From contig CP070679.1 of assembly GCA_020352535.1 (NCBI GenBank), positions 485,431 to 525,915 of the forward strand: DNA of 40,485 nt, read 5' to 3'. Source of the stretch: Candidatus Bathyarchaeota archaeon. Lineage in GTDB: Archaea > Thermoproteota > Bathyarchaeia > Bathyarchaeales > Bathyarchaeaceae. Every line of letters starts with the position of its first letter. The first letter of the stretch is position 1. The notes beneath the pieces are model-generated. The model was not told the DNA's origin. It did not search any database and saw nothing but the letters and a program-made list of their open reading frames with translations. Positions 18,684-25,515 of the stretch are shown here, one piece after another. The translations under genes were made by a program, and so were the position numbers.

Positions 18684-18782
18684 CGTTATGTCATTTGGTA
18701 ACTCATGTTTTATCTCTTGGACATGGAGTTGATGCGGCTTCCAAAGGTTGCTGTACCTCTAGCTTATAGGATTCAGGTAAAA

Positions 18783-18819
18783 GCTTAAGTATCACGTTTG
18801 ATATCAAATGTGATATCAC
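18783..18819 (+). promoter_or_regulatory. promoter with stacked palindromic operators upstream of the PadR gene
   Basis: A TATA-like GCTTAAGTA (18783-18791) is followed by two perfect palindromes, TTTGATATCAAA (18797-18808) and GTGATATCAC (18810-18819), both centred on GATATC, 12.0 nt apart. The expected transcription start falls on or near them. Closely related half-sites (ATCAC, GGTGATGTGATG) flank both sides. The position directly before a PadR-type gene suggests autoregulation of the whole downstream transporter operon. Confidence 0.65.
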
Positions 18820-18829
18820 TGGTGATGTG

Positions 18830-19651
18830 ATGTTCCCAAGCCTTGCAGTGATTAAAGAACGATTGCTCGAGACCATAGGAAAATTTCGTCGAGAGAACGC
18901 GACCAATCCAGACAAGGCTATGAGCGCTGTTGAGTTGGGTCTTCCGTCTGAGTTTGAATGGTTGATGCAAGGACCGCTAAGGCAGCTAGGCGTCTTCGTT
19001 GAGGTTGATGGCAAATACTACCTCTCAGAGAAACGGGCGAAGGAGGTAGAAAAAAACTTCGATAAGATTGCTGAAGATTTCTTAGTTGATAGGGCATTAT
19101 CGCCTCCTCCACGCTTTCGATATTGGATGAGACATACAGCAAGTGTTCCAAAAGGATTCCTTAGATACCGTGTTTTTCAGCTGCTGAAAGAACAGCCTAG
19201 ATCAGGATCAGAGATAATGTCTGAGATTGAAAGGGAAACAGGGGGCCATTGGAAACCAAGTCCGGGATCTATCTATCCGCTTCTTGCGTGGCTCCAAGAC
19301 AATGGCTATACAGAAGAGGTTCCAGCAAAGGCAACAGGAATGAAATACTATCGACTAACTGAAAAAGGCTTAGGCTTCCTAAGGGAGCAATCCAGACTCC
19401 AAGAGAAGGTTCAGGAGAAGCTGGAATACTTCACACCGCCATTTTTCGGAGGACTTGGTTTTACTCCTAATCCTGAAAAACTCCGTAAGCTTCGTGAGCC
19501 TATCCGCCAATTTCTCAAAGCACTACTTGATTTACGAGTGGTGTTGGAGGAGAACTTGACGGATCAATCTCTAGGTGAAACCAGAGACTTGTTGAATAGC
19601 ACAACTAAAAGGATTGTTGCATTTAGAAAGAAACTCGAGAAGGGACGTTAG
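18830..19651 (+). CDS. PadR-family transcriptional regulator, two winged-helix segments
   Basis: A 273-residue DNA-binding protein. The C-terminal half (about 105-185) is a PadR winged helix: GFLRYRVFQLLKEQPRSGSE, PSPGSIYPLLAWLQDNGY and KYYRLTEKG. The N-terminal half (about 1-85) looks like a second winged helix, with KERLLETIGKFRR, AMSAVELGLPSEFEWLM and a VEVDGKYYLSEKR wing. An extended helical C-terminus (about 190-273) fits the PadR dimerisation helix. GTG (18827) or ATG (18830) may start; ATG is used, with GGTGAT just upstream. The gene ends directly against the ABC ATPase ATG (TAGATG). It probably represses its own operon and responds to a small-molecule or envelope signal. Confidence 0.88.
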   Translation: MFPSLAVIKERLLETIGKFRRENATNPDKAMSAVELGLPSEFEWLMQGPLRQLGVFVEVDGKYYLSEKRAKEVEKNFDKIAEDFLVDRALSPPPRFRYWMRHTASVPKGFLRYRVFQLLKEQPRSGSEIMSEIERETGGHWKPSPGSIYPLLAWLQDNGYTEEVPAKATGMKYYRLTEKGLGFLREQSRLQEKVQEKLEYFTPPFFGGLGFTPNPEKLRKLREPIRQFLKALLDLRVVLEENLTDQSLGETRDLLNSTTKRIVAFRKKLEKGR

Positions 19652-20362
19652 ATGGTAGACATAACAACAGAACTGAACGCTGTAATCGAGACTCAAGGCC
19701 TTAGGAAAATGTACCAGATGGGAGCAATCGATGTATCGGCGCTGAGCGGAGTAGACCTGAGAATCGAGAAAGGGGAATTCATGAGCATAATGGGACCATC
19801 AGGTAGTGGAAAGACAACCTTACTCAACATGATTGGCGCCTTGGACAAACCTAGCGGGGGAAAGGTCCTGATTAATGGAACTAACATTTCACAGCTCAAC
19901 GATAATGAGTTGGCGGAGCTTAGAAACAGAGAAATCGGTTTCGTCTTTCAATTCTTCAATCTCATGGCTCGGATGTCCGCGATTCAAAATGTAGAGATGC
20001 CAATGGCGTTTGCTGGCGTTTCTCAAGAGGAGCGTAGGAAACGGGCAATCCGGCTTCTGGAGGAGGTTGGCTTAGGAGATCGAGTGAACCATCGACCGAC
20101 AGAGCTAAGCGGCGGTGAACAGCAGAGAGTTGCCATTGCAAGGGCGTTGGCGAATGATCCGTCAGTGGCACTATGCGATGAGCCTACTGGAAATGTGGAC
20201 TCAGAGACAGGGAAAGAGATTATTGAGATTCTAAGAAGACTGAACAGGGAACAGCAACAGACCTTTGTGATAGTGACCCATGACCCGCTGGTCGCACGTT
20301 CCGTTGATCGCATTGCACATATGCAAGATGGTCTGATAGTGAAGGAGGAATTGGTCGGGTGA
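19652..20362 (+). CDS. ABC transporter ATP-binding protein, LolD/MacB type
   Basis: Cytoplasmic ATPase of 236 residues that would drive the FtsX-type permease two genes downstream. All motifs are intact: Walker A GPSGSGKTT at 48-56, Q-loop Gln100 in FVFQFFNLM, signature LSGGEQQ at 152-158, Walker B VALCDE ending in Glu177, and switch His210 in IVTHD. The sequence style (IEKGEFMSIMGPSGSGKTTLLN, described in part) is typical of lipoprotein-release and macrolide-exporter ATPases. The ATG follows the PadR stop with no gap. Confidence 0.95.
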   Translation: MVDITTELNAVIETQGLRKMYQMGAIDVSALSGVDLRIEKGEFMSIMGPSGSGKTTLLNMIGALDKPSGGKVLINGTNISQLNDNELAELRNREIGFVFQFFNLMARMSAIQNVEMPMAFAGVSQEERRKRAIRLLEEVGLGDRVNHRPTELSGGEQQRVAIARALANDPSVALCDEPTGNVDSETGKEIIEILRRLNREQQQTFVIVTHDPLVARSVDRIAHMQDGLIVKEELVG

Positions 20363-20368
20363 TTCACT

Positions 20369-21601
20369 ATGACTAGAAAGCAATTGACTTCTGCAGTCTT
20401 GGCAGTATGCCTTGTCATGTTAGCTACTGCAATGAATTTGCAGCCAGCTATAGGTTACCAGAACCCACTTTTGGAGGTTAAGGTCGTTGGAGGTTACCTG
20501 ACAGCTGGGGGTGAGAATGCACTAAGCATCTCTCTTGAAAATGCTGGTGAGTCGAATGCGTATGATGTTAAGGCGGCGTTGTCGGTTCCTTCTTCTGTCA
20601 CCGAGATATCGATTGTGAATGGGTCTCACGCAGTGTTTGAGCAGATTGTATATTATACGATGGATGCGATAGTGTGGATGCATCCGGTTTTGTATGTTGA
20701 GAGTGATTGTCCGCTTGGGGCGTACTCTTTGACGCTGGATTTAGAGTATACCGATACTTCGGACAATGTCTACAGCGACAGCGTGCAGATTGGCGTTGCA
20801 GTCGACGCAGTCATCCCGATTGAACGGACACGAATCGCAATACAGAATTTCACTGTCACTCCCACCGATATCTTTCCGGGAGATGAATTCACTATGGAGC
20901 TGGAGCTGAGAAACTGGGGACCAAGTGCCTACGATGTTCAAGTTCAACTGACAATTGATGCTCAAAGTCCATTCGTATCGCTTAACCCTACTCTCATCTT
21001 CGCTGGAGACCTTAAGCAGGACGAAACTGTAAAAGTCATCTACGATTTGGTCAGTAGTGGCGATGCAGCTGCTCAACTTCACCGCCTTTCATTCGTAATC
21101 TCCTACTATGATATGGATGACCAGCCAGCCAGCTTCAACGAAGACATCGCTATAATGGTGAGTAATATCATTGATTTTCGCCTACTCGACATCCAACCCT
21201 CAACCATCGAAGCCAGTCCAGGCGAGTCTGTTACCATCGAGGCTGACCTGCTGCTACTAGGAACAGAAACGGTCGACTTCGTGGAGGTGGAAATAGTCGA
21301 GGACCATTCCATTGCTCCGATTTCAACCGTTTCAGAGAGCTATGAGTACATCGGACGTATGGATCCAGATAGTCCTGTTCTATTCACAGTCCAATTCGTC
21401 GTTGCCTCTGACGCTGAGCTAGGAGACTACCCCATCCAATTACAGGTCAGCTGTTGGGACGGATACAATCAACCCCGCCAAGTAGTGATTACGCAGCCCA
21501 TCACCGTAGGTGAGACATCAAATCCGAATGGCGCGGCAAATCTAACGCTATGGGACATAATTTGGGCTTTTATTAGAATCCTGTTTGGAGTAACGCCATA
21601 G
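20369..21601 (+). CDS. secreted CARDB/COG1361-like extracellular protein
   Basis: A 410-residue protein with a signal peptide (hydrophobic about 7-22, then NLQPAIGY) and three successive immunoglobulin-like beta repeats of the S-layer/CARDB kind: LSISLENAGESNAYDVKAAL near 50, FTMELELRNWGPSAYDVQVQL near 175, and VTIEADLLLLGTETVDFVEV near 285. The C-terminus is a hydrophobic or amphipathic helix (LWDIIWAFIRILFG) that may anchor it to the membrane. It starts 6 nt after the ABC ATPase stop, with GGTGA about 7 nt before the ATG. Lying between ATPase and permease genes, it is a probable extracytoplasmic partner of the transporter. Confidence 0.85.
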   Translation: MTRKQLTSAVLAVCLVMLATAMNLQPAIGYQNPLLEVKVVGGYLTAGGENALSISLENAGESNAYDVKAALSVPSSVTEISIVNGSHAVFEQIVYYTMDAIVWMHPVLYVESDCPLGAYSLTLDLEYTDTSDNVYSDSVQIGVAVDAVIPIERTRIAIQNFTVTPTDIFPGDEFTMELELRNWGPSAYDVQVQLTIDAQSPFVSLNPTLIFAGDLKQDETVKVIYDLVSSGDAAAQLHRLSFVISYYDMDDQPASFNEDIAIMVSNIIDFRLLDIQPSTIEASPGESVTIEADLLLLGTETVDFVEVEIVEDHSIAPISTVSESYEYIGRMDPDSPVLFTVQFVVASDAELGDYPIQLQVSCWDGYNQPRQVVITQPITVGETSNPNGAANLTLWDIIWAFIRILFGVTP

Positions 21602-21611
21602 AGGACTGCTA

Positions 21612-22847
21612 ATGAAGCTTGACGACATCGTCTTCATGGCTGTGGACGGAATAAAGGAGCGTAAGTTCCGAGTATCTTTGAATGTTCTAGGAATTCTGAT
21701 CGGCATATCTGCCATAGTGGCCCTCCTTTCCATCACAACAGGGATGAGTGTATCAATCACTGAGCAGCTGGAGATTCTAGATCCCACTACAATAATAGTA
21801 ATTCCTGGAAGCTTCATGGGCATCGGTCAACAGGCCAATGAGGGTGGTGGACTAGGAGGTTCAGTTTCACTGACTTTGAGAGACATTGACAGAATAGAAC
21901 GAGTATCTGGCGTGGAAATGGTAACGCCTGTGATAAGCAAGACCGTTGAAATCCATGTTGGTAGCTACTCTGATTCTGTGACGGTCACTGGCATGATTCC
22001 CGAGGAATATACCCAAGCCTTCACCACGGTTGAGGTCACTGAGGGCAGGTTCCTACGAGGTAGTGACAGTATGTCGACCGTGCTAGGCGCGAGTGTTGCC
22101 CATCCTCAACACCTTGATGAGCCCATTGCCCGTATAGGAAGCCGGGTGACACTGACACTTGCTGATGAAGACGAGGAGGAGACTACTACATTCCGAGTAG
22201 CCGGTGTTCTGGAGGAGATTGGAGGCACTTTTTTCAGCTCTGCTGACACGCAGATATTCGCGACCTTCTCAACTGCGCAACGGATTTTTCACACTGGCAA
22301 CTCAATCGACCAGATCATAGTAAAAGCTCGTAGTGTTGAGTATGTAGAGAAGATCACCTCAGATATACAAGAAGAGCTCGGCGAGGACGTGATGGTGATG
22401 TCCTCCGATGTGATTACTGAGATGGTTGGTAGCGTGATGACGATGATGGAGGCAATACTTGGCGGAATTGCTGCAATATCTCTAGTGGTCGCTGGGATTT
22501 CTGTCATCAACACAATGACTATCTCTGTCATGGAGCGTACTCGTGAGATAGGCGTGATGAAGGCGTTGGGAGCGAAGAGTCGAGATGTGTTGACGATGTT
22601 TCTCACAGAATCCCTATTGACTGGATTGATTGGTGGAATAGTCGGAGTTGCTTTTGGAGCACTTCTTGGTCAAATAGCCTCCGCTGCTCTGTCCTTTTCC
22701 ATGGATATTCCTTTAACCTCGGTGCCATCATTAGAGGTTGCGGTAGCTGGAATAGTCTTCGCTATCATTACCGGTACATTATCGGGGCTTTACCCTTCTC
22801 GAAAGGCGTCGAAACTCGCTCCTGTAGAGGCTTTGAGATATGAATGA
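21612..22847 (+). CDS. ABC transporter permease, MacB/FtsX family
   Basis: A 411-residue permease with one N-terminal transmembrane helix (about 21-40), a large MacB-type periplasmic-core-like domain (about 45-260) and three C-terminal helices (about 280-305, 330-360, 370-390) forming the FtsX domain. Typical motifs are GISVINTMTISVMERTREIG, MKALGAKSRDV and the C-terminal LYPSRKASKLAPVEALR. The ATG follows the previous stop by 10 nt, with GAGGA upstream. Together with the ATPase it should be a mechanotransmission-type exporter working on the outer face of the membrane. Confidence 0.94.
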   Translation: MKLDDIVFMAVDGIKERKFRVSLNVLGILIGISAIVALLSITTGMSVSITEQLEILDPTTIIVIPGSFMGIGQQANEGGGLGGSVSLTLRDIDRIERVSGVEMVTPVISKTVEIHVGSYSDSVTVTGMIPEEYTQAFTTVEVTEGRFLRGSDSMSTVLGASVAHPQHLDEPIARIGSRVTLTLADEDEEETTTFRVAGVLEEIGGTFFSSADTQIFATFSTAQRIFHTGNSIDQIIVKARSVEYVEKITSDIQEELGEDVMVMSSDVITEMVGSVMTMMEAILGGIAAISLVVAGISVINTMTISVMERTREIGVMKALGAKSRDVLTMFLTESLLTGLIGGIVGVAFGALLGQIASAALSFSMDIPLTSVPSLEVAVAGIVFAIITGTLSGLYPSRKASKLAPVEALRYE

Positions 22848-23475
22848 GGATTTGGGTGGAAGAGCGATGTTCATGGAAGAACTCATCGGCTGCTTCACCT
22901 CGCCAAGACGCACGCTCAAATCGATACTTGAGAAGCCACGTCTCATAAAGGCGACCGGAATAATACTTGCAATTGCTCTTGTTGCAGCTGTAGCCAGCTT
23001 CAACTACATGAGCAAACTTCCTTCAGATTCTCTACCTCGACAGCTGCCCCTAGGATTGCTAGAAATCGGGAGTGGTTTCTCAGCTTTGATTGGGATTTTC
23101 GGAACATGGATAATCAGCTCTACGCTCACACATAGCTTCGCAAAGCTTCAACGGGGAAACGGCTCCTTCACCAATTTCCTGACGCTGGCTGGATACGCTT
23201 CTCTACCGCTTCTGATACAGCAATTGCTTCGCTTGATGGACTCCTATGTCATCAACCCAGAAGGAGTTCTACAATTTGCAGGTTTTCAGCTCTCAGCAGG
23301 CTCTATCGTCGACGTTGCCGCAAGCACATTCTCAATCTTCCGTATCTGGTCAATGATTCTTCTTACTATTGCTACACGCGAAAACTATGGAATATCAACG
23401 GCTAAGTCAGTGATTTGTGTTGCGTTGTCATTCATTCTTATAGTCTTTTTGTCAATGTTCCTTCCTTTAAGATGA
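22840..23475 (+). CDS. Yip1-like multi-pass membrane protein
   Basis: A 211-residue membrane protein with the Yip1-domain layout: an N-terminal LIGCFTSPRRTLKSILEKPR segment, then five hydrophobic stretches (about 35-55, 75-98, 115-130, 150-180, 188-208). It overlaps the permease gene by 8 nt, so it is the last gene of the transporter operon; an internal ATG ten codons in is an alternative start. Yip1-like proteins often accompany archaeal ABC exporters, but their job is not known. Confidence 0.8.
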   Translation: MNEDLGGRAMFMEELIGCFTSPRRTLKSILEKPRLIKATGIILAIALVAAVASFNYMSKLPSDSLPRQLPLGLLEIGSGFSALIGIFGTWIISSTLTHSFAKLQRGNGSFTNFLTLAGYASLPLLIQQLLRLMDSYVINPEGVLQFAGFQLSAGSIVDVAASTFSIFRIWSMILLTIATRENYGISTAKSVICVALSFILIVFLSMFLPLR

Positions 23476-24130: not shown

Positions 24131-24694
24131 ATGCTCACGTCTACCTCCAATCCAACCAAGAGCTTCATGATTTTTGGATTCGCTATGTTAATAGCCGGTG
24201 TAGTTATCATGTCGGTTCTTTGGCTGTTTCCTCCGACGGAGATTGTATATCTGATCGAAGTTGATGAGACTACGAGAACCTCCTACTTCTCTGACTCGAT
24301 TGACACATCGACTGAAGTCTCGTTGAGCAAGTTTCTCTTTGATTTTGATATTAGCACAACTGGTAACAGCACTTTATATGTACGCCGGATTGAAGCGCGT
24401 GGTGTACGAATCGAATTATTCCACGCTAACGCGCAGACTGCTTTCAGCGAACAGGTTCCAGTCACAGTCGGACATAGATTTGAAATCGAAATTGAGAATG
24501 ATGACAAGGGCTACTATAATCCATTGCAGGGATGGATCGACCCAATTCAAATCAACATCACCGGCAGCTTTGCCCTGCGGAGGAAGCCGTTATATTCTGA
24601 TGTACTCATGTCCTTCGGTGCGATTGTGCTTGCATGCGGACTATTAACATACATGCGTACGGAATACAAAGCACGTGCGCGGGTTGAGAAGTGA
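24131..24694 (+). CDS. two-helix membrane protein with extracytoplasmic beta domain
   Basis: Unidentified 187-residue protein: a hydrophobic helix at about 13-33, an extracellular beta-rich region of about 115 residues (FLFDFDISTTGNSTLYVRRI and VTVGHRFEIEIEND blocks), and a second helix at about 158-176 followed by a basic end. The layout suggests both ends in the cytoplasm with one outside domain. Its stop overlaps the GTG start of the next gene (GTGA), so the two are coupled and may form one complex. Confidence 0.7.
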   Translation: MLTSTSNPTKSFMIFGFAMLIAGVVIMSVLWLFPPTEIVYLIEVDETTRTSYFSDSIDTSTEVSLSKFLFDFDISTTGNSTLYVRRIEARGVRIELFHANAQTAFSEQVPVTVGHRFEIEIENDDKGYYNPLQGWIDPIQINITGSFALRRKPLYSDVLMSFGAIVLACGLLTYMRTEYKARARVEK

Positions 24695-25515
24695 ACCTTA
24701 AGCCAGCCCTAAACATGCACCTGCTGCTCTTCTTGGTGCTGTCTGGGGCACTCTGGACATCTTGTCCACTTGCTTGGAGCGTTAACGAAGAACGCGAAGT
24801 TGGCGTAAAGGTTGGAGATTGGGGCCTCTACGGTAATATAACCGTCACCTGGAGCTCCAACGATCCTGGAATGGAACCTGATGAAAGCCTCATCCTAAGC
24901 AACAACACTGCATGGTTTAGACACGACGTCACTGTTGTCACTGGTCCGGCCGTCTTCTTCAGAAACACCACTCATCTCAAGGATGGTACGGAAATATCAA
25001 ACACAGCATGGGTTGACATTGAGAGCGGAACTGGCAATGGAACACTAATGTTCATTTCAGCGTGGCTGAATGACGGGGTTCTCCTCTATGAGCAAACCAT
25101 CGAGCCAGTGTACATCAATAGAACCTTAACTGGTACCTACGCTGGCGCAGAGCGCTTGGTGAACCACCTGAGCTTGAGGTCTAGTTACACGGTCGATGCG
25201 ACTGAGCCTCAAAACATACTGATATCCCTCGACTATTATTGGGACCAAGCTACAGGCATTCTGGTGGAACGCGAAGGCTCCTTCATTAATCAGACGGGGA
25301 GCTACCTGACCTCTTGGCACAAATCAGATATGCTGGTTGAAACGAATCTTTGGGAGTCAGGAGGAGCTCCACCTCCAACCATTAATGGCGGAAGCCTTAT
25401 TCCGTGGCTGCTGGGCGGGGCTATTATCGTCCTTCTCGGCGTCTCAATTATTGTATATAGACGGCGCGGGACTGAAAAACGTGCCAAGAGGCGGCGTCCC
25501 ACTCGGCGACGTTAG
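24691..25515 (+). CDS. secreted, C-terminally membrane-anchored protein
   Basis: A 274-residue protein with a signal peptide (about 7-29, ending near LAWS), an extracellular domain with many N-x-S/T sites (LSNNTAWF, RNTTHL, NGTLMF, NRTLTG, NQTGSY), a stalk GGAPPPTINGG, a transmembrane helix at about 238-258 and a very basic tail KRAKRRRPTRRR. It starts with GTG overlapping the previous stop. This is a type I surface protein, probably glycosylated; the core pattern VGDWGLYGNITVTW is common in archaeal surface proteins of unknown role. Confidence 0.75.
   Translation: MNLKPALNMHLLLFLVLSGALWTSCPLAWSVNEEREVGVKVGDWGLYGNITVTWSSNDPGMEPDESLILSNNTAWFRHDVTVVTGPAVFFRNTTHLKDGTEISNTAWVDIESGTGNGTLMFISAWLNDGVLLYEQTIEPVYINRTLTGTYAGAERLVNHLSLRSSYTVDATEPQNILISLDYYWDQATGILVEREGSFINQTGSYLTSWHKSDMLVETNLWESGGAPPPTINGGSLIPWLLGGAIIVLLGVSIIVYRRRGTEKRAKRRRPTRRR

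Follow-up and report, generated by a model that had tools for sequence, protein, structure and literature searches.

A five-gene unit in a Bathyarchaeia genome

The window analysed here, a stretch of 40,485 nucleotides, corresponds to positions 485431-525915 of a single-contig 1.36-Mb Bathyarchaeia genome and contains a run of five genes on one strand that encodes a PadR regulator, an ATP-binding cassette (ABC) ATPase, a CARDB protein, a MacB-type permease and a Yip1 protein. Genes at this and the compared loci were called mechanically as the longest open reading frames (ORFs), and neighbourhood counts depend on where contigs end. The five ORFs are gapless, with junctions of 0, 6, 10 and -8 nt; the genes, their order and these distances are as a reading made from the sequence alone (the sequence-only reading) had them, and Pfam supports the identities. 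Positions in the Bacillus system YknWXYZ are given for comparison:

18830..19651, + strand: PadR-family regulator with an extra N-terminal winged-helix-like domain (PF03551, AlphaFold2 model)
19652..20362, + strand: MacB/LolD-type ABC ATPase, in the position of YknY (ABC_tran, LolD/MacB models)
20369..21601, + strand: CARDB/NEW3 extracytoplasmic protein of three immunoglobulin (Ig)-like domains, in the position of the adaptor YknX (PF07705, PF10633, AlphaFold2)
21612..22847, + strand: MacB/FtsX-type (type VII) ABC permease, in the position of YknZ (MacB_PCD, FtsX)
22840..23475, + strand: Yip1-family membrane protein with four transmembrane (TM) segments, in the position of YknW (PF04893), sharing 8 nt with the permease gene

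By homology, the motor encoded by the ABC pair is of type VII. The ATPase matches ABC_tran in Pfam (3.4e-35), the MacB model PRK10535 (4.7e-74) and, under its cut-off, the LolD model TIGR02211 (1.3e-79), and its top PDB match is MJ0796 of M. jannaschii (1.9e-69). The permease matches MacB_PCD (5.8e-30) and FtsX (1.8e-22) in Pfam, has MacB as its top PDB matches (4.1e-50), and combines the four TM segments, MacB_PCD ectodomain and FtsX domain that characterize type VII (MacB) permeases. Its closest named relatives in a permease-seeded search are Bathyarchaeota metagenome-assembled genomes (MAGs). The last protein belongs to the Yip1 family (PF04893, 4.3e-18). Chance clustering was rejected, since the same gene set recurs across many distantly related archaeal genomes; a viral or mobile origin was also considered, and a Yip1 scan of viral contigs gave no relative.

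The protein encoded between the ATPase and the permease matches CARDB (PF07705; 1.2e-5, 25.9 bits against a gathering threshold of 22.7) and NPCBM_assoc/NEW3 (PF10633; 3.7e-6, above gathering). An AlphaFold2 model made with 31 archaeal sequences (mean predicted local distance difference test, pLDDT, 90) shows three Ig-like sandwiches behind an N-terminal signal helix, in agreement with the secreted, three-repeat protein of the sequence-only reading; the angles between the domains are not fixed, because the predicted template modelling score (pTM) is 0.57. Along the gene, these parts are arranged as follows:

20375..20434, + strand: N-terminal signal/anchor helix, residues 3-22 (hydropathy, AlphaFold2)
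20471..20812, + strand: Ig-like domain 1, residues 35-148 (AlphaFold2)
20834..21160, + strand: Ig-like domain 2, residues 156-264 (AlphaFold2)
21170..21508, + strand: Ig-like domain 3, residues 268-380 (AlphaFold2)
21548..21583, + strand: C-terminal amphipathic/hydrophobic 12-residue helix, residues 394-405 (AlphaFold2, alignment)

Conserved positions among 31 archaeal homologues include Y-I-G and D364 of domain 3. The alignment further shows that most of the distant homologues have a full TM segment instead of the C-terminal helix, and across the homologues an N-terminal signal is present in 83/90 and a C-terminal TM segment in 77/90. This topology predicts that CARDB proteins are extracytoplasmic and held at the membrane; the C-terminal helix of the window family is short, and membrane anchoring by it is uncertain. 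Compared structurally with Foldseek, the model matches Ig-domain strings, among them integrin legs and complement C3; its PDB profile matches were weak and of Ig type. A hidden membrane-fusion fold was sought and rejected, none being found by Pfam, PDB profile search or among the 50 Foldseek rows listed.

The adaptor position in archaeal and bacterial MacB-type systems

When 150 related genomes were searched with the CARDB protein alone, ten other genomes matched, and each match directly adjoins a MacB-type ATPase and/or permease. All five genes are present in congener G002; in congener G001 the unit is split in two places, one with an assembly gap, and in G010 a contig end falls inside the CARDB gene. 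Congener G003 gave no CARDB match, indicating that the system is accessory. The sequence-only reading had proposed looking for co-conservation of the five genes in the same order: the gene set does recur widely in archaea, and the complete order including PadR was seen only in the window and G002.

To sample the systems without reference to the adaptor, the permease alignment was run against 84,980 species genomes, which yielded 80 loci, of which 47 are archaeal and 33 bacterial. Having been drawn as top matches to an archaeal query, they sample the diversity of bacterial MacB rather than cover it. Archaeal permease runs contained a CARDB gene in 35/47 cases and a bacterial-type adaptor in 0/47, whereas bacterial runs contained an adaptor in 26/33 and CARDB in 1/33, this sole case lying on a possibly misbinned MAG contig of 3 kb. 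For these counts, Fisher's test returns about 1e-16, a value that overstates independence because the sampled species are related. The adaptor profile was built partly from sampled sequences, and Pfam served as the independent check: of the proteins encoded at this position, 29/34 archaeal ones matched CARDB and none HlyD, and 21/25 bacterial ones matched HlyD_D23 and none CARDB. The 26/33 include three loci (L060, L079 and L105) that are all outside the Pfam 21/25; their adaptor labels on the permease tree are circular or unverified and were not used, and Pfam finds no adaptor in L060 or L079.

The lineages sampled include Bathy-, Micr-, Aenigm-, Pace-, Woese- and Nanohaloarchaeota, as well as Methanosarcinales, Thermococci, Thermoplasmata and Nitrososphaerales. 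A separate permease-seeded sample of Halobacteriota showed CARDB in 30/39 permease runs and an adaptor in 0/39, and on a Haloferax larsenii plasmid the CARDB and permease genes share a 4 nt overlap. The suggestion of the sequence-only reading that the CARDB protein stands where the bacterial adaptor would be is therefore borne out by the counts in both domains. On balance, we favour a domain-wide archaeal exchange, in which the adaptor of MacB-type systems was swapped for an unrelated Ig-like string and the motor was kept, as was Yip1 in several lineages. The same reading had remarked on the missing outer membrane, which is nothing special: monoderm bacteria, too, have adaptors alongside MacB-type pumps, and these are known and discussed (PMC5985334).

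Proteins of the CARDB/COG1361 type are common anonymous archaeal surface proteins, often labelled 'S-layer domain', and a large subset of them here gains a concrete, testable partner and role. In Haloferax, an S-layer/COG1361 gene is raised by silver stress (PMC10694973). The CARDB systems are also a natural point of comparison for the contribution that an adaptor makes to a MacB-type motor without an outer membrane and without a funnel. We found no description of the archaeal CARDB-MacB pairing in the open-access literature, and the word archaea is absent from a review of the MacB family (PMC5985334). The machine, which is widespread in archaea, is thus apparently undescribed as regards this pairing, as the sequence-only reading had supposed of the whole; its four-component kind is known from Bacillus YknWXYZ.

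Yip1 and the proposed exporter

The Bacillus system consists of the ABC pair YknY-YknZ, the membrane-fusion protein YknX, which binds to the ectodomain of YknZ, and the Yip1 protein YknW, a modulator of assembly (PMC4887032). The Yip1 gene of the window is no odd extra, since Yip1 has a known place as the fourth component of this transporter type. The window protein is homologous to the YknW family NF052650 of NCBIfam (2e-16) and is not its equivalog, scoring 60 bits against a cut-off of 110. Its homologues in G001, G002 and G010 (52-55% identity) all follow the permease gene, as does the Yip1 gene of MAG CSMAG_1075 (L028); the wider Yip1 family of Bathyarchaeia is found in mixed neighbourhoods.

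Among 40 Halobacteriota Yip1 loci drawn from high-scoring Yip1 matches, CARDB and ATPase/permease genes accompany Yip1 in 24/40, against 8/286 for other genes at the same loci. The sequence-only reading had allowed that CARDB and Yip1 genes might almost never lie near an ABC pair; this is not the case for either gene, as seen in ten of ten CARDB genomes and at these 24/40 Yip1 loci. The usual Halobacteriota order is YIP1-CARDB-ATP-PERM, which is the order yknW-yknX-yknY-yknZ with one gene exchanged, and two loci (L307, L312) have YIP1-ATP-CARDB-PERM. Sets bearing Yip1 fall into at least two separate archaeal groups of the permease tree. The link between Yip1 and ABC genes is real but not universal, since Yip1 of Methanobacteriota sits with another partner and no ABC genes lie within 1.5 kb of it (L324-L343). 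These observations link archaea to the Bacillus puzzle around Yip1/YknW. The recurring neighbours of the Halobacteriota Yip1 operons, examined for hints to the substrate, were only RadC and tetratricopeptide repeat (TPR) genes.

Several variants were seen beside these sets. Four related systems of the same order (L020, L022, L024, L025) have an ATPase with an N-terminal four-TM extension and no Yip1; that this extension is a fused Yip1 was rejected by profile comparison (probability 0.4 percent). In three Bathyarchaeota MAGs (L034, L036, L049), a Yip1 protein bearing an insert is encoded upstream of a MacB-type permease, directly before the ATPase-permease pair in L034 and L036, and there is no separate CARDB gene, as though the extracellular partner were part of Yip1. 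In one Bathyarchaeia family (L152, L156, L157, L162, L163, L166), a Yip1-like protein of ~345 aa with nine TM segments accompanies an ABC ATPase of 316 aa and two membrane proteins with six TM segments each.

Comparison with known systems places the unit closest to YknWXYZ. Both have separate genes for the ATPase and for a MacB-type permease with a large ectodomain, an extracytoplasmic membrane-anchored partner, and a Yip1-family protein in the operon. They differ in that the window set has no HlyD-type Pfam match and thus no membrane-fusion (HlyD/MacA) adaptor: the partner here is a three-Ig CARDB protein with a C-terminal anchor, whereas YknX is a membrane-fusion protein with an N-terminal anchor. 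The window unit also adds a PadR regulator. With three of four components matching and the membrane-fusion adaptor missing, the unit is best described as a variant rather than a member of YknWXYZ. The accessory ABC sets of bacteriocin clusters (BawDEFG; AS-48EFGH type) likewise combine adaptor, ATPase and permease, with Yip1 in BawG and other clusters, but their adaptor is of the HlyD family and they are linked to bacteriocin genes. MacAB-TolC shares the MacB-type ATPase and the permease ectodomain; the window unit, however, has separate ATPase and permease genes, no MacA, and no TolC or outer membrane. LolCDE has the same type VII motor, and the window ATPase scores well against LolD, but the unit has one permease gene and both models stay under their cut-offs (LolD 266.8/307.75 bits, lolCE 84.5/362.45). 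FtsEX also couples a type VII motor to an extracytoplasmic partner, whereas the window permease has a full MacB_PCD ectodomain, and FtsE (210/264.85 bits) and, far more so, the FtsX models fall below cut-off. The much-studied MJ0796 is the nearest solved structure to the window ATPase and may thus already give the class a structural starting point; on the gene neighbourhood of MJ0796, nothing was found in the open-access literature.

In our view, the unit probably codes for a type VII (MacB-family) exporter of four components, an archaeal system of the YknWXYZ kind in which the CARDB protein takes the place of the adaptor. From the comparisons above we infer a complex with a motor of two ATPase and two permease copies, in which cytoplasmic ATP hydrolysis would move the permease ectodomain (mechanotransmission) instead of driving substrate through a channel. 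A signal peptide would direct export of the CARDB protein, and its C-terminal helix would keep it at the membrane, where, as gene position suggests, it would dock on the permease ectodomain in place of the bacterial membrane-fusion adaptor, with Yip1 as a putative assembly partner like YknW.

Bacterial MacB-type pumps expel membrane-damaging molecules. By analogy, the likeliest job of the archaeal machine would be to clear the outer face of the membrane of its probable substrates, membrane-active peptides or other amphipathic compounds. YknWXYZ is implicated in protection against SDP toxin (PMC4887032), a leaderless bacteriocin cluster includes the HlyD-ATPase-permease-Yip1 set bawDEFG (PMC10707071), and Yip1 genes recur with the accessory ABC sets of cyclized bacteriocins (PMC8659200). 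Characterised relatives thus guard against, or are linked to, membrane-active peptides, and the surface-delivery machine envisaged by the sequence-only reading finds no support.

Several observations weigh against the proposed exporter. Given its C-terminal anchoring and the absence of a hairpin, lipoyl or barrel domain, CARDB is not expected to form a funnel like that of MacA/YknX, and its task at this site may be another one. The window operon showed no bacteriocin-like gene, few homologous loci have PadR, and most CARDB systems are without Yip1. The Yip1 score lies under the YknW equivalog cut-off, and Methanobacteriota Yip1 directly precedes an unrelated single-TM protein of ~265-275 aa with no convincing Pfam match.

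Other roles for the pair can be envisaged. The CARDB protein could be cargo, pulled from the membrane and delivered to the envelope by the ABC pair in the way that LolCDE handles lipoproteins; this would be the surface-delivery machine of the sequence-only reading. Protein extraction is possible for MacB-type and LolCDE permeases, CARDB proteins occur in archaeal secretomes (PMC8345856; PMC10667668), and the CARDB gene is dedicated to the transporter; we nevertheless regard this as unlikely, because each transporter has a single CARDB gene, placed where bacteria have the adaptor, and the C-terminal membrane anchor of 77/90 proteins speaks against release. A similarly low probability attaches to CARDB as an extracytoplasmic effector that the motor would switch, as FtsEX does with its cell-wall partners, in a system that would remodel the S-layer or pseudoperiplasm without export. 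FtsEX is among the type VII motors (PMC5985334) and the Foldseek matches liken Ig-domain strings to adhesive or surface-binding modules, but Pfam finds no enzymatic domain in CARDB proteins, the permease with its full MacB_PCD domain is nearest to MacB and not FtsX, and the Yip1/YknW partnership indicates the export class. Least probable is the movement of membrane lipids or lipid-linked compounds instead of peptides, which is still a live alternative because a second, insert-bearing Yip1 type adjoins thiolase and 3-hydroxy-3-methylglutaryl-coenzyme A (HMG-CoA) synthase genes in many Bathyarchaeia. A MacB-type ATPase and permease follow that cluster in L167, L168 and L175, and in a Thermoproteota MAG an HMG-CoA reductase gene (L092:7738-8619) is the immediate neighbour of a CARDB-permease-ATPase set. 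Against a lipid role, operons with this second Yip1 type are mostly without a CARDB gene, and the window operon itself contains nothing lipid-related.

The genome of the window also carries a second Yip1 gene (G000:C1 ~382061-383224; L027:7061-8224, minus strand), whose product has an extracellular insert of ~200 aa after TM1 and which is preceded by HMG-CoA synthase-like and thiolase genes.

The PadR gene and its upstream region

The regulator is assigned to the PadR family by PF03551 (5.7e-15 over residues 117-185; 55.5 bits against a gathering threshold of 27). Its start is most likely ATG 18830 and not GTG 18827, as the codon matching the latter is no start codon in congener G001. The N-terminal ~75 residues have the order H-H-E-E-H at a pLDDT of about 60-90 (whole-model pLDDT 66), which is compatible with the second winged helix of the sequence-only reading and, in an AlphaFold2 model from an alignment of 3, falls short of proving it. 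The PadR ORF of congener G002 (L016:10088-10678) lacks this winged-helix-like part, and the upstream start region and the dyad described below are still recognisable there. Two features precede padR:

18782..18791, + strand: TATA-like AT-rich stretch 5' of padR, putative promoter element (read from sequence)
18799..18818, no strand: candidate PadR operator, 20-bp perfect dyad TGATATCA-AATG-TGATATCA (conservation in congeners)

The congeners have TTTTAATA and TTATATA at the TATA-like position. The dyad, 11 nt 5' of the padR ATG, is also perfect in G001 (L019) and near-perfect in G002 (L016), and lies inside a block of ~40 bp that is far better conserved in the two congeners than the DNA immediately upstream. 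This conservation suggests autorepression: PadR would repress its own operon at the TGATATCA dyad and be released by substrate or membrane damage.

Elsewhere, padR lies ahead of the ATPase gene in three loci of Woese-/Micrarchaeota (L048, L050, L054) and is divergent and upstream in L022, L024 and L025; it is an occasional, not a constant, member of the archaeal units. Downstream of the window unit, a secreted 274-aa protein with a C-terminal TM segment and no Pfam match above gathering is encoded at 24691-25515, after a two-TM protein of 187 aa.

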